Program-made: the position numbers and the translations under genes
NCBI RefSeq assembly: GCF_947503465.1
Contig: NZ_CANNDN010000001.1
Location: 1,922,001 to 1,986,000 of the forward strand
Origin: an uncultured Tateyamaria sp.
GTDB taxonomy: Bacteria; Pseudomonadota; Alphaproteobacteria; Rhodobacterales; Rhodobacteraceae
Reading direction: 5' to 3'
Length of the DNA stretch: 64,000 nucleotides
Notes under the pieces: model-generated
Databases searched by the model: none
Told to the model about the DNA's origin: nothing
The model's input: the letters and a program-made list of their open reading frames with translations, nothing else
Part shown: positions 53,214 through 62,095 of the stretch, in pieces
Numbering within the stretch: the first letter of the stretch is position 1
How the letters are laid out: each line of letters starts with the position of its first letter

Positions 53214-53768
53214 TTACTTGGGCAAGAGAACCTTGTCGACGACGTGGATAACGCCGTTGGATTGCTTGACGTCGGCAATGGTGATTTTGGCAGCGTTGCC
53301 GTTTTCGTCGAAGATGAAGATGTTGTTGCCGCGCACCTGTGCCGACAGGGCATCACCTGACAACGTTTCGACATGGGCAAAGCCATCCGCGCTGTTTGCC
53401 GCCTTGGTCTTCAGCGCCTGAGCCGACAGATCGCCCGCGATCACGTGTGCGGTCAGGATTTTGGTCAGCTGACCCTTGTTTTCGGGCTGGAGCAGGGTGT
53501 CGACAGTACCAGCAGGCAGGGCGGCAAACGCATCGTTGACCGGCGCGAAGACGGTGAAGGGGCCTGCGCTCATCAGGGCGTCGACCAGCCCGGCGGCCTG
53601 CACGGCGGCAACAAGCGTTGTGTGATCTGCCGAGTTCACGGCGTTTTCGACGATGTTCTTGTCCGTGAACATGGGCGCGCCACCGACGTCCGGATTGGCG
53701 GCGAAAGATGCGGTTGCGGCCAGCGCGAGGCAGAGAACGGCAGCGGCGGTCTTGCGGGGGGTGAACAT
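53214..53768 (-). CDS. Exported fasciclin (FAS1) domain protein
   Basis: A 184-residue protein with a signal peptide (residues 1-23, ending SFA) and one FAS1 domain: TLVAAVQAAGLVDAL, the FAPVNDAFAAL motif near residue 78, and the C-terminal VIHVVDKVLLP. FAS1 domains mediate adhesion or protein contacts; this one is periplasmic or secreted. An ECF-type promoter pattern lies 70 bp upstream on its strand, sharing the gap with the one for the cytochrome b gene. Confidence 0.93.
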   Translation of the reverse strand: MFTPRKTAAAVLCLALAATASFAANPDVGGAPMFTDKNIVENAVNSADHTTLVAAVQAAGLVDALMSAGPFTVFAPVNDAFAALPAGTVDTLLQPENKGQLTKILTAHVIAGDLSAQALKTKAANSADGFAHVETLSGDALSAQVRGNNIFIFDENGNAAKITIADVKQSNGVIHVVDKVLLPK

Positions 53769-53837: not shown

Positions 53838-53864
53838 AACGGGGGGCGCGCTGAAAAAGTTTCA
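53838..53864 (-). promoter_or_regulatory. ECF-sigma promoter pattern for the fasciclin gene
   Basis: On the minus strand: TGAAACT (53864 to 53858), 15 nt, CCGTT (53842 to 53838). It is one of six copies of the same pattern in this region, 70 bp before the fasciclin ATG. Confidence 0.7.
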
Positions 53865-53887
53865 GTGCGGTGATCCGGGCGGTGCAC

Positions 53888-53914
53888 TGAAACTCTTGGG
53901 CGGCGGCGGTCGTA
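53888..53914 (+). promoter_or_regulatory. ECF-sigma promoter pattern for the cytochrome b / oxidoreductase pair
   Basis: TGAAACT at 53888-53894, 15 nt, TCGTA at 53910-53914, 33 bp before the cytochrome b ATG. Spacing is identical to the other copies. It diverges from the fasciclin promoter, with the two -35 elements about 24 bp apart. Confidence 0.75.
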
Positions 53915-53946
53915 GAACCCCGTGACCCAAGAAGGAGAACGCCATC

Positions 53947-54666
53947 ATGAACGTCACGCATTCGCCTGGCTCCGGACCCCTTGTCCGCCGCCATACCATC
54001 GTCACGCGTGTCACGCATTGGATCTGGGCGGTTTGCCTATTCTTTCTGTTGCTGACGGGGCTGCAGATATTCAATGCACATCCTGTGCTGTATTGGGGCG
54101 ACCAATCCGGGTTTGCCTTTGACAACTCAGTGCTGCGACCTGGCCCATTCCCAGGTTGGGCCACGATCCCGAGCAATGTTGATCTGGCAACGGGCCGCGT
54201 CATTCATTTCTTTTTCGCTTGGATCTTTGTGGCGACACTTTTGGTGTGGGCGATGGGTTCTTTGCTGTCCGGGCATCTGGTGCGCGATCTGGTCATGCGC
54301 AAGCGGGACTGGGCCGCGTTGGTATCCGATGCACGTGACCATGCGCGTCTGCGGTTCCGGCACGGGGTGCGGTACGGGCCGTTGCAGCGGTTGAGCTATG
54401 GTGTCGTGCTGTTTGTGCTGTTTCCGCTGATGGGTCTGACCGGGCTGGCGATGTCGCCGGGGGCGAATGCGGCGGTGCCGTGGTTGCCCGAAATCCTGGG
54501 AGGGCGGCAATCGGCGCGCACCCTGCATTTTGTCATTGCCGCCGGGTTGCTGGGGTTCTTTTTCGTGCACGTTGCGATGGTGTTGCTGGCAGGTCCGCTT
54601 AACGAAATGCGTGCCATCCTGACCGGGTGGTACCGCGCGGATTCCGAGGAGGCTGACGATGTCTGA
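53947..54666 (+). CDS. Cytochrome b561-type membrane subunit
   Basis: A 239-residue four-helix b-type cytochrome of the hydrogenase/thiosulfate-reductase cytochrome b family. Candidate haem-ligand His residues are in RRHTIVTRVTHWIWAV near residue 15, RVIHFFFAW near 85, and in TLHFVIAAGLLGFFFVHVAMV (split) near the C-terminus. It passes electrons between quinone and a periplasmic partner, here the coupled molybdopterin oxidoreductase. The 8-bp overlap with the next gene supports a complex. It carries an ECF promoter pattern. Confidence 0.9.
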   Translation: MNVTHSPGSGPLVRRHTIVTRVTHWIWAVCLFFLLLTGLQIFNAHPVLYWGDQSGFAFDNSVLRPGPFPGWATIPSNVDLATGRVIHFFFAWIFVATLLVWAMGSLLSGHLVRDLVMRKRDWAALVSDARDHARLRFRHGVRYGPLQRLSYGVVLFVLFPLMGLTGLAMSPGANAAVPWLPEILGGRQSARTLHFVIAAGLLGFFFVHVAMVLLAGPLNEMRAILTGWYRADSEEADDV

Positions 54667-55438
54667 TCTGTTGTGGACACGCCGCGCGGTGCTGGGCGGA
54701 TTGGCCGGGTCCACACTGGGCGGCTGCCAGGTGCTGGACGGGTTAAGCGCGCCCGACAACAGGGTGCGCCAGTTCATGGCGCGGGCAAATGATCTGACCA
54801 TGGCTATGCAGCGGGGTGTGCTGGACCGTGACGCGCTGGCCCAGGAGTTTACCCGCGCAGACATTCGCCAGCCGATGCGTCCCAACGGCGTCATCGACCC
54901 GCAGGATGCGGACTATGTTGCGCTGAAGACGGGGGATTTTTCTGCTTACCGATTGCAAGTGGACGGCCTTGTGGAAAGGCCGTTGTCGCTGTCGCTGGAC
55001 GAGATCCGGGCAATGCCGACCCGATCACAGATCACGCGGCACGATTGTGTGGAAGGCTGGAGTTGCATTGCGGAGTGGGCTGGTGTCCCACTGTCACATG
55101 TTCTGGATCTGGCAGGTGTCCGCCCGAGCGCGCGGTTTGTTCTGTTTCACTGCTTTGACACGATTGAACGCAGTCTGTCCGGGGGTGTAAAATACTACGA
55201 GACGATTGATCTGGTCGATGCGCGCCACCCGCAAACAATCCTGGCGTGGGGCATGAACGGTGGCGCGCTGCCTGTCCCCAATGGCGCGCCCTTGCGCGTC
55301 CGGGTCGAACGGCAGCTAGGCTACAAGATGGCCAAGTATATCCGCGCCATTGAGTTGGTAGACGACTTTTCCGGGGTTGGCCGTGGGCACGGCGGATACT
55401 GGGAAGACCGTGGATACGAATGGTATGCTGGGATCTGA
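54659..55438 (+). CDS. Sulfite-oxidase-family molybdopterin oxidoreductase, Tat-exported
   Basis: A 259-residue protein with the sulfite-oxidase/YedY Moco domain. A twin-arginine leader TRRAVLGGLAG (residues 7-17) is followed by a lipobox-like LGGC, so it may be a Tat lipoprotein. The molybdenum-ligating Cys is in HDCVEGWSC near residue 123, and the GYKMAKYIRAIELV segment is near the end. It lacks the dimerisation domain of classic sulfite oxidase. The physiological substrate could be sulfite or an S- or N-oxide, not resolvable here. It is coupled to the cytochrome b gene. Confidence 0.88.
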   Translation: MSDLLWTRRAVLGGLAGSTLGGCQVLDGLSAPDNRVRQFMARANDLTMAMQRGVLDRDALAQEFTRADIRQPMRPNGVIDPQDADYVALKTGDFSAYRLQVDGLVERPLSLSLDEIRAMPTRSQITRHDCVEGWSCIAEWAGVPLSHVLDLAGVRPSARFVLFHCFDTIERSLSGGVKYYETIDLVDARHPQTILAWGMNGGALPVPNGAPLRVRVERQLGYKMAKYIRAIELVDDFSGVGRGHGGYWEDRGYEWYAGI

Positions 55439-55459
55439 AGTCGGTGACGCAACGGAAGC

Positions 55460-55486
55460 TGCAACTTGCGCGATGCGGCGCCCGTA
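55460..55486 (+). promoter_or_regulatory. ECF-sigma promoter pattern for the sigma-factor operon
   Basis: TGCAACT at 55460-55466 (one mismatch to TGAAACT), 15 nt, CCGTA at 55482-55486. It is 49 bp before the first gene of the anti-sigma/sigma/cupin operon, implying autoregulation. Its -10 lies in the palindrome CGTACG shared with an opposing copy. Confidence 0.6.
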
Positions 55487-55511
55487 CGACCTTGTACATC
55501 CACAAGTTTCA
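55485..55511 (-). promoter_or_regulatory. Opposing ECF-sigma promoter pattern, antisense to the oxidoreductase gene
   Basis: On the minus strand: TGAAACT (55511 to 55505), 15 nt, TCGTA (55489 to 55485), the full consensus. It would transcribe leftward across the 3' end of the molybdopterin oxidoreductase gene. No leftward gene follows, so it is either an antisense-RNA promoter or a coincidence. Confidence 0.5.
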
Positions 55512-55534
55512 GACACGCGCAATTCGCTCAGGCC

Positions 55535-56017
55535 ATGAAAACACTGCTCAACCGTGCCCTTGCGGCCCTGCGATCTGGCAAGCCTCATCGCCCGGACATC
55601 GAGGCCGCAGCACCCTTGATGCACTTGCTGCAAGAGGCGGAGCCCGCACCGGACATGCTTGCCCTGATCGAAGCGCGGATTGACGGGGAACCGCGCATTT
55701 CCCGTCGCGCGCCTGTCGGCGTGGTGGTGTTCGTATTTCTGTGCGGTCTGGCAATGGGCGGGTTGGCGGTAGTAATCGGTCAGGACCGCCAGAGTATTGT
55801 GGCCCGGACCAGCGCCGGTGCGCCGTGGGTGCCCCTTGGGACGGTGACGTTGCACGGGTCAGGCTTGCGCGGGTTTGTGGAGGCAAAGTGCGACGGAAAC
55901 ACGCATTTCTTTATCACGATGCACGGCCGGGGCGTTGCGGACGAACCTGATGAAACGCCTGTCGATTTCCCGCTGATGCGGGAAGACGAAAAAATTCGGA
56001 TGGAGTGCATCTTTTGA
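55535..56017 (+). CDS. Single-pass membrane protein, candidate RskA-like anti-sigma factor
   Basis: A 160-residue protein with a cytosolic N-terminus, one transmembrane helix at about 60-82 (VGVVVFVFLCGLAMGG), and a periplasmic C-terminal domain with two Cys (EAKCDG and the final MECIF). The PAPDMLALIEARIDGEP stretch before the helix resembles the PPxGLxxxIE motif common in RskA-type anti-sigma factors. The next gene, about 50 bp on, is an ECF sigma factor. Anti-sigma activity is inferred. ATG 55535 begins the conserved-looking part. Confidence 0.65.
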   Translation: MKTLLNRALAALRSGKPHRPDIEAAAPLMHLLQEAEPAPDMLALIEARIDGEPRISRRAPVGVVVFVFLCGLAMGGLAVVIGQDRQSIVARTSAGAPWVPLGTVTLHGSGLRGFVEAKCDGNTHFFITMHGRGVADEPDETPVDFPLMREDEKIRMECIF

Positions 56018-56066
56018 TCTGCGAGGTCCGTAGTGCTATGAAACAGCACGATGGAAAGGACCGGAT

Positions 56067-56666
56067 GTGGGTGTGACCAAGTTGGTGCCCAGGTCTCAGC
56101 AACATGGGGGCGCGCGGGCAAAAATGGGGACGGCGGAACAGTCCCGCTTGATTTCAGATTTGCTCATCAAATGTGCCGCGGGCGACCGCGCCGCGTTTCG
56201 CCTGTTTTACGACGCCAGCTCCAGATACGTGTTTGGCGTCGTTCTCGGTATTTTGCGGGATCGCGAGGTTGCAAGCGAAGTTGCACAGGAAACCTATGTG
56301 CGGATCTGGAAACGGGCCGGGCATTTTCAGGCGGAGTGCGGTAATCCGCTGTCGTGGATCGGGTCGATTGCCCGCAATTGCGCCATTGATCGCCTGCGGT
56401 CGGAACGGGCGCGGGGCTTCGTGCAGTTTTCCGATGACGTACCGGACATCAGCGGTGATCCGGACCCCTCAAGCGCGACGTTGGACACCATGGTGATCCG
56501 CAAGTTGCTGGAAGAATTGCGGCCCGAATATCGGCAGGCACTGCTGCTGTGCTATTTTCAGGGCTATACCTACATCGAGTTGGCCAGTGTGATGGATGTT
56601 CCGGTCGGAACAGCCAAGAGTTGGGTACGCCGCGGGATCGCGGCATTGAAGGAAGCGATGATATGA
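56067..56666 (+). CDS. ECF-family (extracytoplasmic function) RNA polymerase sigma factor
   Basis: A sigma-70 group-4 factor of 199 residues from GTG 56067, which has AAGGA upstream; an in-frame ATG at 56124 (180 residues) is also possible. Region 2 reads FRLFYDASSRYVFGV and SEVAQETYVRIWKR (residues 45-95), with IARNCAIDRLR after it. Region 4 has the YIELASVMDVPVGTAKSWVRRG helix-turn-helix (split). It overlaps the cupin anti-sigma gene by ATGA. I infer that it recognises the TGAAACT-N15-YCGT sites around it. Confidence 0.93.
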   Translation: MGVTKLVPRSQQHGGARAKMGTAEQSRLISDLLIKCAAGDRAAFRLFYDASSRYVFGVVLGILRDREVASEVAQETYVRIWKRAGHFQAECGNPLSWIGSIARNCAIDRLRSERARGFVQFSDDVPDISGDPDPSSATLDTMVIRKLLEELRPEYRQALLLCYFQGYTYIELASVMDVPVGTAKSWVRRGIAALKEAMI

Positions 56667-57178
56667 AGAAAGCCGACGCGACACATTCTGCCGAGGTTTT
56701 GGATGCGCTTTTGGGTGGCATGGGGGCGAGCCTGCCGGGCACGCGCCCAGATCTGGCGGATGAGGCGACAGTCTTTGGAGCGCATCTGTCGCCGCTGTTG
56801 ACCCGTTTGCCCGAAGCCACACCGCCGGATGGTCTGTTCGATGCCATCGAGGCCGAGCTGGATGCGGTGGATGATGCCCCGTTTCAGAGTGTGCGCGCCG
56901 AGGAGGGAGTGTGGGAACAACGCTCCGACAAGGTCTGGAAAAAGGTGCTGGCTCAGGAAACGGGATCAGGTCGCACGATGTATCTGCTGCGGTGCCTGCC
57001 GGGGGCTTCGATCAAGCCGCATATCCACGAACGGGCGGAACACCTGTTCATTCTTGAGGGCGAGCTGTGGATTGACGGCAAGCTTTATTCAGCAGGGGAT
57101 GCGCAGGTTGCCATGCCCGGCAGTGTACATCCCGAGATCACGATGCCCGCGGGCTGTTTGGTTCTGGTCAGCGCCTAG
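56663..57178 (+). CDS. ChrR-type cupin anti-sigma factor lacking the zinc motif
   Basis: A 171-residue protein with a C-terminal cupin domain; its metal-ligand candidates are His120, His122 and His127 in PHIHERAEHLF, plus His156. The N-terminal segment ends in RLPEATPPDGLFDAIEAELD, similar to other ChrR-family members. Unlike Rhodobacter ChrR it has no His-x3-Cys-x2-Cys zinc site, so any anti-sigma contact must be zinc-independent. The ATGA overlap with the sigma gene strongly supports a partner role. Confidence 0.82.
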   Translation: MKKADATHSAEVLDALLGGMGASLPGTRPDLADEATVFGAHLSPLLTRLPEATPPDGLFDAIEAELDAVDDAPFQSVRAEEGVWEQRSDKVWKKVLAQETGSGRTMYLLRCLPGASIKPHIHERAEHLFILEGELWIDGKLYSAGDAQVAMPGSVHPEITMPAGCLVLVSA

Positions 57179-57636
57179 GCGTTGATCCGAACCACCCAAA
57201 TCACCCAGAACGCCCCGGACAACCACGGGCCAAACGCGATTTTGCGCCGGCCAGTCATGACCGCGAAGGTCAGCGCACCGATAGCGGCAACGCCGACCAG
57301 CATGGGGAGGTCCTGCAGGCCCAGCCACGCACCGGCGGCTGCAAGCAGTTTTGCATCGCCGAGGCCCAGTCCATCCTGACCCGTGTGGTGATAGAATGCC
57401 GTGCCCAGACCTGCGAACGCGACATATCCAACGGTTGCGCCAAGCACGGCGGCTAACGGGGTGACGACGGGCGACAGGAAACTGAGCGCAAGGCCCGACA
57501 GCATCAACCCAAGACTTGCGGCATCGGGAATCTGAAAACGCCGGGTGTCCACGACGCAGACCCAGCCAAGGACCACCGCCAGAAAGGCTGAGGCCAGCCA
57601 TGCAAAGCTGGCAGTGTGCGACAGACCGTCCGTCAT
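57175..57636 (-). CDS. Prepilin peptidase, protease domain only (A24 aspartic peptidase)
   Basis: A 153-residue six-helix membrane peptidase cleaving prepilin/pseudopilin leaders. The two catalytic Asp are in DTRRFQIPD near residue 28 and in the GLGLGDAKLLAA (GxGD) motif near 93. The N-terminal methylation domain of PilD/GspO is missing, as in CpaA/TadV. The type II secretion pseudopilin genes 3 kb away are likely clients. An ECF promoter pattern lies 31 bp before its start. It overlaps the cupin gene end by 4 bp. Confidence 0.88.
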   Translation of the reverse strand: MTDGLSHTASFAWLASAFLAVVLGWVCVVDTRRFQIPDAASLGLMLSGLALSFLSPVVTPLAAVLGATVGYVAFAGLGTAFYHHTGQDGLGLGDAKLLAAAGAWLGLQDLPMLVGVAAIGALTFAVMTGRRKIAFGPWLSGAFWVIWVVRINA

Positions 57637-57666
57637 CCGCTCTCTCCCCTTCCGGTTACAGAACAG

Positions 57667-57693
57667 TACGGGCGCACGTGCAGACTTGTTTCA
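57667..57693 (-). promoter_or_regulatory. ECF-sigma promoter pattern for the prepilin peptidase
   Basis: On the minus strand: TGAAACA (57693 to 57687, one mismatch), 15 nt, CCGTA (57671 to 57667), 31 bp before the peptidase ATG. It is back-to-back with the DUF4331 promoter; only 5 bp separate their -35 elements. Confidence 0.65.
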
Positions 57694-57698
57694 CAGCC

Positions 57699-57725
57699 TG
57701 AAACTTTTTCGGGCCGCCTGTCGTC
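57699..57725 (+). promoter_or_regulatory. ECF-sigma promoter pattern for the DUF4331 gene
   Basis: TGAAACT at 57699-57705, 15 nt, TCGTC at 57721-57725, full consensus. The DUF4331 start is 141 bp downstream, leaving a leader of roughly 130 nt that may have its own control. Confidence 0.7.
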
Positions 57726-57866
57726 TTGTTGGGTGCAGCACCTGAAGTCCCACCACCGCGCATTTGCGCCAGGGCTGAGTTCCGCTGTCGGACGGCTTCA
57801 CACGCAAAAACAGGCGTTTTTGCGGCCGGGAATGCCGTGCGCAATTTCGATCTGAGAGGACATGAT

Positions 57867-59495
57867 ATGAAGACTCAAAAGGCATTGGCCCTAAGCACGG
57901 CTTTGCTGGCCGTACTTGCGGCGACAACCGGCCCGATTGCGGCATCATCGCACCGCGAAGCGCCTGCGATCACCGAACATCCCAAAGTGGACGGAACCGA
58001 TTTCTATCTGTTTCGCAGCTACGAGCCAGGACGCGAAGGTTACGTGACCCTGCTGGCCAACTACCAACCTCTGCAGGTGAACTATGGCGGCCCCAGCTAC
58101 TACACGATGGATGCAGACGGCATTTACGAGATCCATATCGACAATGACGGTGACGCCATTGAAGACCTGACCTTCCAGTTCGACTTCGAGAACCAGTTGG
58201 CCAACGATGGTGCGGGCATTGGTTTGGATATCGGAGGCGTCAACGTGGCCATCCCGCTGAAATATGCCGGGCCCATCCTGCCCAATGATCAATCGCTGCT
58301 GAACGAAAGCGAGAGCTATCAGTTGACCCTGATCGAGGGAGACCGCCGCAGTGGCACACGAAGCGCGATCACGCGCGCAGGATCAGGTCAGACCACATTC
58401 ACCAAGCCATTGGATCATGTCGGGCTGAAAACCCTTCCAGACTATGACGGATACGCCAACCAGTTCATCTATGATTTCGATATGGCGGGATGTGACATGC
58501 CGGGTCGCGTGTTCGTCGGACAGCGTGCTGACGCTTTTGCGCTGAACCTTGGCGAAGTGTTCGACCTGATCAACTTTGTGCCCATCGAGGGGGACAGCGC
58601 TCCGGGTGCGGGGGACGGCGCGGGCTTTGACGGCGGGATCACCCAAAGTCGAGTCAACGACGATGTGTTTGGCAAGGTCAACGTGTCCACCCTTGCCCTC
58701 GAACTGCCGATCGCCTGCATCACCGAAGGCGATGACCCTGTCATCGGGGCTTGGACCTCATCCAGTCTTGCCCAGGCCGAGCTGGAAAACCCGTCACCAA
58801 GCTTTGAAGACACGTCCCGGGTCGGCGGTGCGCTTGTGCAACAGTCGCGCCTGTCCACGCCGCTCGTGAATGAGGTGGTGATCGGGATCACCGACAAGGA
58901 CCGGTTCAACGGCTCGGAACCCATCGATGACGCCAGCTTTGCCACCTATGTCACCAACCCCACTTTCCCGCGACTGGTCGAGTTGCTGTTTGGTCCGGAT
59001 CTGGGGCTGGTCGACAATATCGCCCCCAAGAACCTGCCGCGGACAGATCTGGTGGCCACATTCCTGACCGGTTTGCCCGGTCTGAATCAGCCACAGAACG
59101 TGACGGCCGCAGAGATGATGCGCCTGAATACCGCCATTCCCGCCACGCTGCGGGAGGATCAGCATTCGTTTGGTGTGGTGGCCGAAGACCTTGCCGGTTT
59201 TCCGAATGGGCGCCGTCCGGGTGATGACGTGATTGACGTGATCCTGCGCGTTGCCTTGGGTGCCCTGTGTCATCCCGTTCCCCTTGGTGCGGAACTGGGT
59301 GTGGAAGGTGCCGAAGACGGCACGCCAAGCGATCTTATTAACCTGGGCTTCTGCAATCCCGATCAAGCGCCAGTTGGCAATGTTGCCTTTACGGATGGCG
59401 CTCCGATCTCGGCTTTGGAATTGCAGAACGCGTTCCCGTATCTGAACTCTCCCATCCCCGGTTCGCCCAACGGCACCGTTGCGGTCGCCAACTGA
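57867..59495 (+). CDS. Exported DUF4331 protein
   Basis: A 542-residue protein with a Sec signal peptide (residues 1-27, ending ASS after TGPIAA) and the DUF4331 domain starting SSHREAPAITEHPKVDGTDFYLF (split at SSHREAPAI). Residues are rich in Asp/Asn/Gly, suggesting a calcium-rich or repetitive extracellular fold. Function is unknown for the family. ATG 57867 has GAGAGGA upstream. A small lipoprotein gene follows in the same transcript, and the T2SS operon is convergent to it. I infer it is a candidate T2SS cargo or surface-anchored partner. Confidence 0.88.
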   Translation: MKTQKALALSTALLAVLAATTGPIAASSHREAPAITEHPKVDGTDFYLFRSYEPGREGYVTLLANYQPLQVNYGGPSYYTMDADGIYEIHIDNDGDAIEDLTFQFDFENQLANDGAGIGLDIGGVNVAIPLKYAGPILPNDQSLLNESESYQLTLIEGDRRSGTRSAITRAGSGQTTFTKPLDHVGLKTLPDYDGYANQFIYDFDMAGCDMPGRVFVGQRADAFALNLGEVFDLINFVPIEGDSAPGAGDGAGFDGGITQSRVNDDVFGKVNVSTLALELPIACITEGDDPVIGAWTSSSLAQAELENPSPSFEDTSRVGGALVQQSRLSTPLVNEVVIGITDKDRFNGSEPIDDASFATYVTNPTFPRLVELLFGPDLGLVDNIAPKNLPRTDLVATFLTGLPGLNQPQNVTAAEMMRLNTAIPATLREDQHSFGVVAEDLAGFPNGRRPGDDVIDVILRVALGALCHPVPLGAELGVEGAEDGTPSDLINLGFCNPDQAPVGNVAFTDGAPISALELQNAFPYLNSPIPGSPNGTVAVAN

Positions 59496-59752: not shown

Positions 59753-59783
59753 CGCCGCCGGGACACCCCGGCGGCGTTTTTTT
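59753..59783 (+). terminator. Rho-independent terminator after the DUF4331/lipoprotein transcript
   Basis: A perfect 10-bp GC-rich stem (59753-59762 with 59767-59776), 4-nt loop, followed by seven T. The clearest terminator in the window. It overlaps the gspK stop on the other strand. Confidence 0.9.
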
Positions 59784-60597
59784 ATTGCAAGGGGATGCTT
59801 TGGACCGCGCCGCTGTCGGGATCGCGCAACAGCCGTCGGCGCAGCGCGGCCCGTGCCACCCCCACGCTGGCATTGGCGGTCACGTCGAAGACGTCCGACG
59901 TGAACCCCGCCAGCGGCGGCAGCGGGACCCCAAGGGCCGAGAGGTCGCTGGCGTCCAAAAACCCTTTCGCAGCGCGGCGCGCGATCAGACCACGTGCCGC
60001 GGGCGGATTGCTCAATAGCGCTGCCATCAAGGGTTCTGTCACGGTGTTCAGGTTCATCGGGCCGCGAACGGGCGTCGCTGTTACGTGCGGTGCGAGGCGG
60101 TCGATATCGCCTTGCGCGATGCCAAGACGGACCAAGTCCTGTGGTGCGCGCAAGGGACCGTTTTGCGTGATGATCTGCGTAATCTGGCCAGCGAGCGTTT
60201 CCGGCAGGCCGAGGATTGTCAGCAGGGCGGCAAAAACGCGTTGTTCCGCAAGAGCAGCGGGGTGCAGCGCATTGAGGTCGAACATGCCGCGTCCGTCCAC
60301 GATCGAGACGTCGTACTGGCCAAAGTCGAGGGCGATGCGTTCTTGTGCAGCGTCTGCCCAAGGTTCGCCGGGATGATCGGACAGCGGTGCAGTGCCAAAG
60401 TCACGGCGCAGCGTCACCGCAACCGACGTGATGCCGCTGCGTGCGAGGCTTTGTGCCTGTGCCACGTCATTGGCTGATGCAAGCCGTTGAAGCGCTACAT
60501 CCTGGTCGCTCAGCATGACCTGCACCAGACCCGTTCCGACCGCGAGGATCGCGAGCACGTTGAGGAGGCTGACACCGGCCTGTCTGTTCCGCGTCAT
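59782..60597 (-). CDS. gspK: Type II secretion minor pseudopilin GspK
   Basis: A 271-residue minor pseudopilin at the tip of the T2SS pseudopilus. The prepilin leader ends RQAG and the mature protein starts VSLLNVLAILAV, with Asn at +5 instead of the Glu found in other pseudopilins, a GspK hallmark. A helix-hairpin-helix-like repeat follows (GMFDLNALHP near residue 105 and LNTVTEPLM near 185). Slightly shorter than the E. coli protein. Last gene of the leftward operon, overlapping gspJ by ATGA. Confidence 0.9.
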   Translation of the reverse strand: MTRNRQAGVSLLNVLAILAVGTGLVQVMLSDQDVALQRLASANDVAQAQSLARSGITSVAVTLRRDFGTAPLSDHPGEPWADAAQERIALDFGQYDVSIVDGRGMFDLNALHPAALAEQRVFAALLTILGLPETLAGQITQIITQNGPLRAPQDLVRLGIAQGDIDRLAPHVTATPVRGPMNLNTVTEPLMAALLSNPPAARGLIARRAAKGFLDASDLSALGVPLPPLAGFTSDVFDVTANASVGVARAALRRRLLRDPDSGAVQSIPLQ

Positions 60598-61037
60598 GGT
60601 CGGTGTCCGGCGTGCAGAGCCATCTGGCGCCAGATATCCGCTTCCGGCAGGGTCAGCATGATGGTGTCGCCGTCCGGCGACGACAGCGTGGCTGCGTCGT
60701 CAAGAACGAGTTGTTCCATCATTGGTCGATCCGCAGATGTAATCCGTCGTATCAGACCGGCCTTCGACGCCTTCCATGTGATGATTTGGCTTGCGACATG
60801 CAACTCAAGCTCAGTCCCGAAGCTTGCCCTATGAGCCTGTTCGACGTCGCGCGCCAAGATGTGAAAGGCCCGGTCCTGCAGCTTGATCTGTTCCAGCCGT
60901 CCCGTCACCCCGGCTTCGGTCCGGGTCACACTTTCCAAAAGGATTAGTCCCGCCAATCCGATCATGGCCGAAACAGCAAGAGCCACCAGCATCTCGATCA
61001 GAGTGACGCCCGCCTGTGCCGATCGGTGTTGCCTCAT
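60594..61037 (-). CDS. gspJ: Type II secretion minor pseudopilin GspJ
   Basis: A 147-residue pseudopilin. The cleavage site is QAG followed by VTLIEMLVALAVSAMIG, with Glu at +5 in the mature chain. The RDVEQAHR segment near residue 65 fits GspJ more than GspI or GspH. ATGA overlaps join it to both neighbours (the LpoA-like gene and gspK). The prepilin peptidase at 57175-57636 is the likely processor. Confidence 0.83.
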   Translation of the reverse strand: MRQHRSAQAGVTLIEMLVALAVSAMIGLAGLILLESVTRTEAGVTGRLEQIKLQDRAFHILARDVEQAHRASFGTELELHVASQIITWKASKAGLIRRITSADRPMMEQLVLDDAATLSSPDGDTIMLTLPEADIWRQMALHAGHRP

Positions 61038-62095
61038 GCGACCGGCAGCACGTTTCCGCCGTCGATCCGCAGGATCGCCAAGTCGCGTTCGCAGGTCTTG
61101 TTCCGGTCAAACCGGGTGTTGCCTAGCAGTCCCTCGAACGCTGTGCGGCGGTTTGGATTTGCAGCCCCGTCCAGGCTGTGCGCCATCCCGACTGCGTCAA
61201 CGGCAAGTGCTGCGATCACGCCCAGTTCTTCGTCCAGCTGTGCGCGAAAGAAAGACGACATCCGATCGAAGCGCACCGGGTCAGGCCCAGTGAAGCACGC
61301 CTTGTCAAGGCGTTCCAGATCTTCCTGACCAAGGCCGGACCATTGCAGTGACCCAATGGTCGTCACGCCTGTTTTCACGGCGGCTTCTGCCTGACGCAAG
61401 GCGTTTGCGCCGGTGCCGGGAACATAGACAATGTCCGGCATCGCGCCTCCGCCGGATTGACGCAGAGCGTCGGCCATATCCTTGGGTTGTGTTGCGGCGG
61501 GGATGTTGGGCAGTGGTTTCACCTTGGCTGTGCGTGCCCGCGACTGCACGGCAAGCGACGCCTGTTGGCCCAAGGTGCCGCCGGTTTCGACAACAGCCAG
61601 CGATTGCGCGCCAGTATCCTTGGCGAACCGGAGCACCGTGTTCACCGATTGTGCGGGTGTGACACCAAACACCCATGCGCCGGATGCAGCGAGTGCCGTG
61701 TCATTGGACAGCGACAAGACAGGTACAGGACCTGCAGCCTGCACAACGGCAGGGGTCTGGTCGCGAAAAAGCGGGCCCACGATGATATTGGCTCCCTGGG
61801 CCATGGCGTCACGGGCTGCTTGTGCTGCGGATTGCGTGGTTTCGCCGCTGTCCAGTACACGGGTCATTCCGGGTGTACCGCCAAAGTCTTCTACCAGCCA
61901 CACCGCCTTGGCCATCTGTTGTCCCAGCCCGGCACGGGCGCCGGACAAGGGCAACAGCAACGCCACCTGCGCGCCGGGCTGCGAAGCGCCCTGCGCACCA
62001 TTTCCGATTGGCCCGCGTGCACAGGCACCAACCAACGGTGTCACGGCCAGCAATGACAGGCATTTGCGACGGCTCAAACGTGGTGCGGGCAACAT
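61034..62095 (-). CDS. LpoA/LppC-like lipoprotein inside the T2SS operon
   Basis: A 353-residue lipoprotein with twin-arginine-like SRRKCLSLL and lipobox VGAC (Cys25), then a periplasmic-binding-protein fold. It resembles the 17520-18719 protein along its length, for example VALLLPLSGA against VALLVPRGSG and GANIIVGPLFRDQ against GAQIIVGPLYAEA. It sits between gspF and gspJ and is coupled to gspJ by ATGA. LpoA-like genes are not standard T2SS parts. It could assist passage through peptidoglycan or act as a pilotin (inference). Confidence 0.82.
   Translation of the reverse strand: MLPAPRLSRRKCLSLLAVTPLVGACARGPIGNGAQGASQPGAQVALLLPLSGARAGLGQQMAKAVWLVEDFGGTPGMTRVLDSGETTQSAAQAARDAMAQGANIIVGPLFRDQTPAVVQAAGPVPVLSLSNDTALAASGAWVFGVTPAQSVNTVLRFAKDTGAQSLAVVETGGTLGQQASLAVQSRARTAKVKPLPNIPAATQPKDMADALRQSGGGAMPDIVYVPGTGANALRQAEAAVKTGVTTIGSLQWSGLGQEDLERLDKACFTGPDPVRFDRMSSFFRAQLDEELGVIAALAVDAVGMAHSLDGAANPNRRTAFEGLLGNTRFDRNKTCERDLAILRIDGGNVLPVA

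Follow-up and report, generated by a model that had tools for sequence, protein, structure and literature searches.

A conserved TGAAAC-N17-CGT motif forms putative ECF promoters around a sigma/anti-sigma operon and a type II secretion locus in Tateyamaria

The window analysed is a stretch of 64,000 nucleotides from an uncultured Tateyamaria sp. It contains a gene cluster with an ECF sigma factor operon, redox and FAS1 genes, a DUF4331 gene and a type II secretion system (T2SS), part of which extends beyond the window (Table 1). The Moco oxidoreductase scored 96 bits against the MsrP model NF003767, under the cut-off of 207. Its partner is a cytochrome b561, not MsrQ, and the pair does not qualify as MsrPQ. 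GspE, L, M, G, C and K, N_methyl pseudopilins and an A24 peptidase were recognised, while GspD, F, I and J are annotated in orthologous loci; secretin, ATPase, pseudopilins, platform and prepilin peptidase are all represented. The first-pass annotation regarded the target genes as otherwise unlinked. The prepilin peptidase, DUF4331 and gspL nevertheless form one type II secretion locus, known also without the sigma factor. DUF4331 is probably the cargo of the adjoining T2SS, judging from its position. The predicted structure of DUF4331 was too poor to be of use (pLDDT 27), and the literature searched held no paper with the term DUF4331 and no published function of the family. No Rfam family was above threshold in the region.

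Table 1. Genes and putative regulatory features of the cluster, in window coordinates
Feature	Position	Strand	Remarks
FAS1 (fasciclin) protein, signal peptide	53214..53768	-	Pfam Fasciclin E 8e-35
Putative FAS1 promoter	53839..53864	-	exact, TGAAACT-N15-CCGT; relatives: CGAAACT
Putative cytochrome b - Moco promoter	53888..53913	+	exact, TGAAACT-N15-TCGT(A); -35 identity 1.00 in 5 genomes
Cytochrome b561	53947..54666	+	Pfam Ni_hydr_CYTB E 1e-20
Sulfite-oxidase-fold Moco oxidoreductase	54659..55438	+	best NCBIfam match MsrP, below cut-off; Tat-like/lipoprotein N-terminus (from sequence)
Putative orf4-sigma-anti-sigma operon promoter	55460..55485	+	TGCAACT-N15-CCGT(A), one mismatch; aligned in 8 genomes, scores 8-11 of 11
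Leftward exact match	55486..55511	-	absent in all relatives
orf4, small membrane protein at RskA position	55535..56017	+	one TM helix; two invariant Cys in predicted periplasmic part
ECF sigma factor, SigK-like (sigma1)	56067..56666	+	GTG start conserved; best solved relative 4nqw SigK, E 1e-22
Candidate soluble anti-sigma, ChrR-like cupin domain	56663..57178	+	Cupin_7 47.5 bits
Prepilin peptidase (A24, GspO-type; gspO)	57175..57636	-	Pfam Peptidase_A24 E 7e-15
Putative gspO promoter	57668..57693	-	TGAAACA-N15-CCGT(A), one mismatch; CGT invariant in 8 genomes
Putative DUF4331 promoter	57699..57724	+	exact, TGAAACT-N15-TCGT(C)
DUF4331 mRNA 5' leader	57725..57866	+	long, conserved, covarying structure
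DUF4331 exported protein	57867..59495	+	Pfam DUF4331 E 1e-133; equal position in T2SS loci of other genera
GspK	59782..60597	-	
GspJ-like pseudopilin	60594..61037	-	N_methyl; orthologous loci annotate GspJ
LppC-like periplasmic protein	61034..62095	-	conserved in T2SS operon

Sigma1 consists of regions 2 and 4 only (Pfam Sigma70_r2 and r4_2; TIGR02937 above cut-off). The SigK family model PRK09646 is its best NCBIfam match, at 136 bits and below the cut-off of 226. The sigma1 gene is overlapped by that of the cupin protein, in which the metal ligands H120/H122/E126/H156 are invariant in six genomes. The N-terminal domain of this protein lacks the zinc cysteine pair of the zinc anti-sigma motif, the only cysteines being at 111 and 165, and no solved structure matched the cupin profile. 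It is a candidate soluble anti-sigma that may hold sigma1. The orf4 protein matched no Pfam family, RskA_C included, and its predicted structure is weak (pTM 0.35). A short helix module is common to orf4 and the cupin protein, and a short helix to orf4 and RskA (hhalign 28%). On a Leisingera plasmid an RskA_C gene takes the place of orf4, followed by sigma (56%) and cupin (47%) genes in unchanged order. The orf4 protein is a candidate second anti-sigma, located in the membrane, which probably also holds sigma1. In a distant alphaproteobacterium sigma, two cupin proteins, DUF4331 and HupE are all encoded in one row.

The first-pass annotation described six sites of the form TGAAACT-N15-YCGT with a common gap and CGT. 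All six are present, four of them exact and two with one mismatch, and the case is stronger than had been claimed. The exact copies compare with 0.02 expected in shuffles of the window and 0.003 in 5.5-kb shuffles. Allowing up to one mismatch, the window holds 8 matches against 1.13 expected, a number attained by 0 of 100 shuffles. The shared gap was likewise borne out: TGAAAC-Nx-CGT occurs seven times at x=17 in the 17.5-kb cluster and 0-1 times at every other x from 8 to 27, and other sigma-bearing loci have 30 occurrences at x=17 against 0-6 at other spacings. The genome was scanned by pattern searches. Seven exact copies were found in 4.11 Mb, six of them within 13.4 kb (C1:1975839-1989262) and the seventh inside the hmgA coding sequence; the one-mismatch copies were not enriched (60 on forward and reverse strands, 75 in the reversed control). 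As these lie at genome background, one-mismatch sites were weighed solely by position and conservation. A dispersed regulon was rejected on the same ground, none being evident outside the cluster in the pattern search of the genome.

Two of the exact copies lie just beyond the window end, in T2SS genes, one upstream of gspL and one inside gspH. Together with the sites before FAS1, cytochrome b/Moco, the sigma operon, the prepilin peptidase and DUF4331, they make up seven sites that as many as eight independent genomes sharing this cluster retain. The distance from the -35 box to CGT is exactly 17 nt in these genomes, while the spacer diverges. Footprinting of the seven sites in 5-8 genomes gave identities of 0.87-1.00 for the -35 box, 1.00 for CGT at each site and 0.37-0.71 for the spacer. 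The alignment of orthologous regions, the fixed spacing and the close similarity to the published sigma-W promoter form, TGAAAC-N16,17-CGTA (PMC2375139), strongly support the ECF promoter motif proposed for the surroundings of the sigma/anti-sigma operon. Exact 27-mers, which include the -10 A, fall inside the cluster in 12 of 13 cases in seven other cluster-bearing genomes. Of 101 relatives, 6 have both the anti-sigma and the DUF4331 gene; the exceptions to this co-occurrence are a single weak anti-sigma match and a single genome with DUF4331 only. The neighbouring katG and OxyR-like LysR genes were considered as parts of the system. The LysR gene was left out, as it is missing from the cluster in the relatives; of the two genes, this comparison covered LysR only.

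The intergenic sites are located 24-70 nt ahead of the start codon (142-147 nt for DUF4331), a distance that is near-constant across genomes. The gspO and DUF4331 sites stand back to back, with their -35 boxes 5 bp apart in 8 of 8 genomes. The -35 box of gspL shares bases with the ribosome site of gspG and with its start codon, so the gspG start region itself may conserve part of the box. Within gspH, the codons AAA CTT and CGT ATC are invariant in 7 of 7 genomes, although CTT and CGT account for 18% of Leu codons and 16% of Arg codons, respectively. The alignment of the sigma operon's own site in eight genomes points to autoregulation. The leftward copy at 55511, one of the six listed in the first-pass annotation, is a genuine exact match but was dropped as a promoter. 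It is probably a chance match, because it is absent from relatives and its CGTACG overlaps the -10 of the sigma operon.

Chance could in principle account for the clustering of a ten-base pattern, and the background level of one-mismatch copies and the unconserved 55511 copy are what it would predict. For every site but 55511 it is refuted by the concentration of exact copies and their conservation, and as a general explanation it is scarcely credible. It is also very improbable that the TGAAAC boxes, instead of being -35 boxes, serve as half-sites for a DNA-binding repressor or activator. The gspO/DUF4331 pair does form a perfect inverted repeat, GTTTCA-N5-TGAAAC, with a constant gap, but two back-to-back promoters would look the same. 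The remaining sites are single boxes, and half-sites do not predict the CGT found exactly 17 nt downstream of every box.

A more serious competitor for the role of reader is encoded in the same cluster. A second SigK-like sigma with its RskA (sigma2-rskA2) lies immediately downstream of gspD in each of the six sigma1 clusters readable on that side and on a Sulfitobacter 2-538A contig. Since this second SigK/RskA pair is present, we infer rather than observe that the reader of the motif is sigma1, either without sigma2 or jointly with it. Sulfitobacter DUF4331 loci without sigma1 carry TGAAAC-N16/17-CGTG or CGTT in 19 of 19 cases; sites much like these can thus be read by a different sigma. A scan upstream of the Sulfitobacter sigma2-like operons gave no autoregulatory TGAAAC site; instead, the chromosomal sigma2 relatives of this genus carry TGAAAC-N16/17-CGT immediately downstream of rskA, in front of FAS1, MsrB or DoxX genes. 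The CGTG sites of the sigma1-less T2SS/DUF4331 clusters are probably read by this chromosomal SigK/RskA, and the motif would therefore belong to a SigK-like clade. These observations would suit RskA-controlled sigma2 reading the ECF promoters, alone or jointly, with sigma1 as its target or cascade partner. Against this, no TGAAAC-type site is present at the cluster's sigma2 operon, and the sigma1 operon bears one in its own promoter in eight genomes. The base after CGT is A, C or T in the eight sigma1 loci and G in nearly all sigma1-less loci, which suggests a different reader. Sigma2 as the reader, alone or jointly, is considered unlikely, at perhaps one chance in several. The paired systems, with -10 CGTA/C and CGTG, may offer a natural case of a promoter-specificity shift, and TGAAAC-N16/17-CGT could serve in regulon prediction as a promoter for the SigK-like clade in Roseobacteraceae.

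Motif, exact spacing, conservation and gene content are read directly from the sequence. The motif is probably a start signal, and within a single cluster of 14 kb it precedes at least six transcription units, and probably seven. The explanation that fits best, and is held with good though incomplete confidence, is that these are ECF promoters read by an autoregulated, anti-sigma-held sigma1 that drives T2SS, DUF4331 and redox/FAS1 genes. In the resting state the soluble cupin protein would restrain sigma1, probably together with the membrane protein orf4. Once freed by a signal from the envelope or of redox type, sigma1 would take RNA polymerase to TG(A/C)AAC-N17-CGT(A/C/T) and turn on its own operon of orf4, sigma and cupin anti-sigma, amplifying the loop. 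Six more transcripts would be started: FAS1; cytochrome b561 with the Moco oxidoreductase; gspO; DUF4331; and two of the T2SS. Of the latter, the leftward operon would begin with gspL, and the gspH-internal promoter would serve gspI-gspC-gspD and possibly the following sigma2-rskA2 genes. In the active state the cell would thus have a dedicated T2SS with DUF4331 as its likely cargo, along with redox repair in the periplasm. A more elaborate version is put forward tentatively, as a possibility with the balance against it. Here sigma1 would be a two-input switch, held at the same time by a metal- or small-molecule-sensing cupin and by a membrane protein derived from RskA that has two cysteines paired in its periplasmic part. 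The switch would be devoted to a private T2SS with DUF4331 as main cargo, further controlled by the structured mRNA leader.

No description of a sigma1/T2SS/DUF4331 circuit was found in the literature searched. The sites offer a testable functional link that would make ECF sigma, T2SS, DUF4331, FAS1 and Moco/Met-repair enzymes parts of one response.

SigK/RskA of Mycobacterium tuberculosis (ECF18/19) includes the nearest solved relative of sigma1 (4nqw) and its best NCBIfam match. SigK has a reported cysteine pair (133, 183). The sigma2-rskA2 genes are a plain pair of this type. Sigma1 differs in scoring below the family cut-off, in having a cupin gene next to it instead of RskA, and in that its type of site precedes T2SS and DUF4331 genes. 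M. tuberculosis SigK controls mpt70 and mpt83 (PMC7509140), and a FAS1 domain is present in MPB70 (PMC10540498); the present sites would extend this SigK-FAS1 link of mycobacteria to Roseobacteraceae.

RpoE-ChrR of Rhodobacter sphaeroides (ECF11) has a soluble anti-sigma with a ChrR cupin domain, like the candidate anti-sigma here, and the ligand spacing H-x-H-x3-E...H is identical to that of ChrR H141/H143/E147/H177 (PMC6852236). The photooxidative-stress table of R. sphaeroides also includes a fasciclin gene, RSP_1409 (PMC7074977). However, the cupin protein lacks the zinc anti-sigma motif (ChrR H6, H31, C35, C38), the whole-protein ChrR model scores far under its cut-off, and sigma1 is SigK-like, not ECF11. 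With Sigma-W of Bacillus subtilis the likeness is in the promoter only; sigma group, anti-sigma and regulon are all different.

The ECF systems BcrS-AbcS (ECF16, Brucella) and SigF (Caulobacter) control a Moco enzyme of YedY/MsrP type, which they induce, in Brucella together with MsrQ (PMC8315932, PMC3511200). Unlike here, they use promoters of the form GTAAC(C)-N16/17-CGAA, Brucella has an anti-sigma of the NrsF family, and the parts of these reports consulted describe no T2SS or DUF4331. RpoE1/RpoE4 of Sinorhizobium meliloti (ECF26) have the Moco sulfite dehydrogenase SorT in their regulon and in their own operon (PMC3511301). Their anti-sigma is of a different type, and the Moco gene of the present cluster is nearer MsrP than SorT.

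The motif TGAAACT-N15-YCGT, whose first box and CGT correspond to the -35 and -10 elements of a candidate ECF promoter, is present at all six sites of the first-pass annotation, four exact and two with one mismatch. The exact form occurs four times in the window against 0.02 expected from dinucleotide shuffling. A genome-wide pattern search of the host genome (4.11 Mb), in which the window spans C1:1922001-1986000, found seven exact copies, six of them within C1:1975839-1989262 of the host contig, and the seventh inside the homogentisate dioxygenase gene. The one-mismatch copies did not exceed a reversed control, and a regulon outside the cluster is therefore not indicated. Both exact sites beyond the window (see table) fall in the adjoining type II secretion (T2SS) locus, to which the prepilin peptidase (gspO), gspK, gspJ and DUF4331 genes of the window also belong. 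The targets, described initially as otherwise unlinked, are largely members of one secretion locus.

Of 101 relatives searched, four congeners (Tateyamaria) and one further member of the family carry the anti-sigma gene, and a single weak match came from another part of the class. It is also present in Candidatus Rhodobacter lobularis and a Sulfitobacter. Gene order is identical in all genomes bearing the cluster, and FAS1 and cytochrome b are restricted to the Tateyamaria loci among the clusters compared. Alignment of the orthologous promoter regions, a check proposed at the outset for the intergenic ones, showed both boxes kept at seven promoters (-35 box 87-100% identical, CGT 100%) and the 15-nt spacer diverged (37-71%). 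For TGAAAC-Nx-CGT, x=17 is far commoner than every other spacing. Within gspH, the codons under both boxes are invariant in seven genomes despite being uncommon synonyms, and the constraint therefore acts on the DNA. The leftward copy at 55511 was dropped from the promoter set and is treated as a chance match: it is missing from relatives, transcription from it would enter the Moco gene in antisense, and its palindromic CGTACG overlaps the sigma-operon -10.

The SigK family is the best NCBIfam match of sigma1, the ECF sigma of the cluster, yet under its cut-off; the nearest solved structure is M. tuberculosis SigK. The product of the gene 3′ of sigma1 is soluble and has a cupin domain of the ChrR type; the spacing of its four metal ligands exactly equals that of ChrR (PMC6852236), but it lacks the zinc anti-sigma cysteines. 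Upstream in the same operon, orf4 has one predicted membrane helix followed by two invariant cysteines, and a Pfam search found no family for it. A short helix module is common to orf4 and the cupin protein (hhalign 84%, E 7e-6, 29 columns). A Leisingera plasmid carries homologues of sigma1 (56%) and the cupin protein (47%) with a true RskA_C anti-sigma at the orf4 position; we infer that orf4 may be a reduced RskA-like partner.

The shared ECF promoter motif around the sigma operon is supported by conservation and fixed spacing, with sigma1 as its probable reader. The rival to sigma1 is sigma2, a second SigK-like sigma beside the T2SS genes, acting alone or together with sigma1. T2SS/DUF4331 loci exist without sigma1 in Sulfitobacter, Jannaschia, Marinovum, Paracoccus and one further genome (G025). 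In those of Sulfitobacter, TGAAAC-N16/17 precedes 19/19 DUF4331 genes, followed by CGTG in 18 and CGTT in the other. Many of these genomes have a chromosomal SigK/RskA operon, 44-52% identical to sigma2, with TGAAAC-N16/17-CGT sites 3′ of it preceding FAS1, MsrB (SelR) or DoxX genes, a likely SigK regulon of Roseobacteraceae. As a clade, the SigK-like sigmas of this family appear, from these comparisons, to read TGAAAC-N16/17-CGT. The base after CGT is mostly G with RskA-type sigmas and A, C or T in sigma1 loci. Sigma1 is put first as the probable reader of the cluster motif because its own promoter carries the site, whereas the sigma2 operon has no TGAAAC site of its own.

Sites and genes by location (C1, host contig; L-numbers, loci of the host or other genomes used for comparison)
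Feature	Location	Context
Exact site beyond window	C1:1988444-1988469 (-)	before leftward operon with gspL as first gene
Exact site beyond window	C1:1989237-1989262 (+)	within gspH
sigma2, true RskA, DUF4198 gene	L032:564-2546 = C1:1992564-1994546	directly after gspD; kept in relatives
Site after Sulfitobacter SigK/RskA	L140, L141, L147, L149, L151, L165	before FAS1
Site after Sulfitobacter SigK/RskA	L155, L161	before MsrB
Site after Sulfitobacter SigK/RskA	L143, L157, L160, L163	before DoxX
gspO/DUF4331 promoters	window 57687-57705	back to back
DUF4331 5′ leader	window 57725-57866	
HupE/UreJ, DUF4198 or copper amine oxidase genes	L171:3268-9503, L071:2755-9492, L070:8926-12962	distant bacteria
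Sulfitobacter cluster copy	L054/L087	NZ_CANMQS010000009.1 (105,176 bp)

The cluster promoter is the same as the sigma-W consensus of Bacillus (PMC2375139). In M. tuberculosis, SigK controls FAS1-domain antigens (PMC7509140, PMC10540498). An RpoE of Rhodobacter capsulatus is noted to be closer to SigK than that of R. sphaeroides, whose photooxidative-stress table includes a fasciclin gene (PMC7074977). YedY/MsrP-type enzymes are under ECF control in Brucella and Caulobacter, with promoters that differ from the cluster motif (PMC8315932, PMC3511200). For the Moco/cytochrome b pair the nearest family is MsrP, at a score under its cut-off. This pair, the FAS1 genes and the Met-sulfoxide repair by MsrB in Sulfitobacter together suggest an envelope oxidant as the signal.

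DUF4331 adjoins gspK in every T2SS locus examined, including those lacking sigma1, and gspO where listed, which makes it a probable cargo of this T2SS. The term DUF4331 was not found in the literature searched. Links between DUF4331 and ECF systems recur outside this cluster: a distant alphaproteobacterium has a sigma, two cupin proteins, DUF4331 and HupE together, and Pseudoalteromonas has sigma-RskA-DUF4331. HupE/UreJ, DUF4198 or copper amine oxidase genes lie repeatedly beside DUF4331 or a cupin-type sigma, hinting at a metal link.

The DUF4331 leader is of near-constant length (142-147 nt, window and seven orthologous loci) and has a conserved covarying structure, with nine pairs changed on both sides and a covariation score reached by 0/500 shuffles. 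It has no Rfam match and was found in sigma1-bearing loci only. The -35 boxes of the gspO and DUF4331 promoters form GTTTCA-N5-TGAAAC, separated in each of eight genomes by exactly 5 bp, and two polymerases could hardly bind simultaneously.

T2SS genes and ECF sigmas were reported on Sulfitobacter plasmids in 2026, with no mention of the sigma1 circuit in the available part of that paper (PMC13386836). The Sulfitobacter copy of the cluster spans the contig ends, and the contig is therefore probably a circular plasmid. T2SS/DUF4331 loci without a sigma are also found on plasmids of Sulfitobacter, Jannaschia, Marinovum and Paracoccus.
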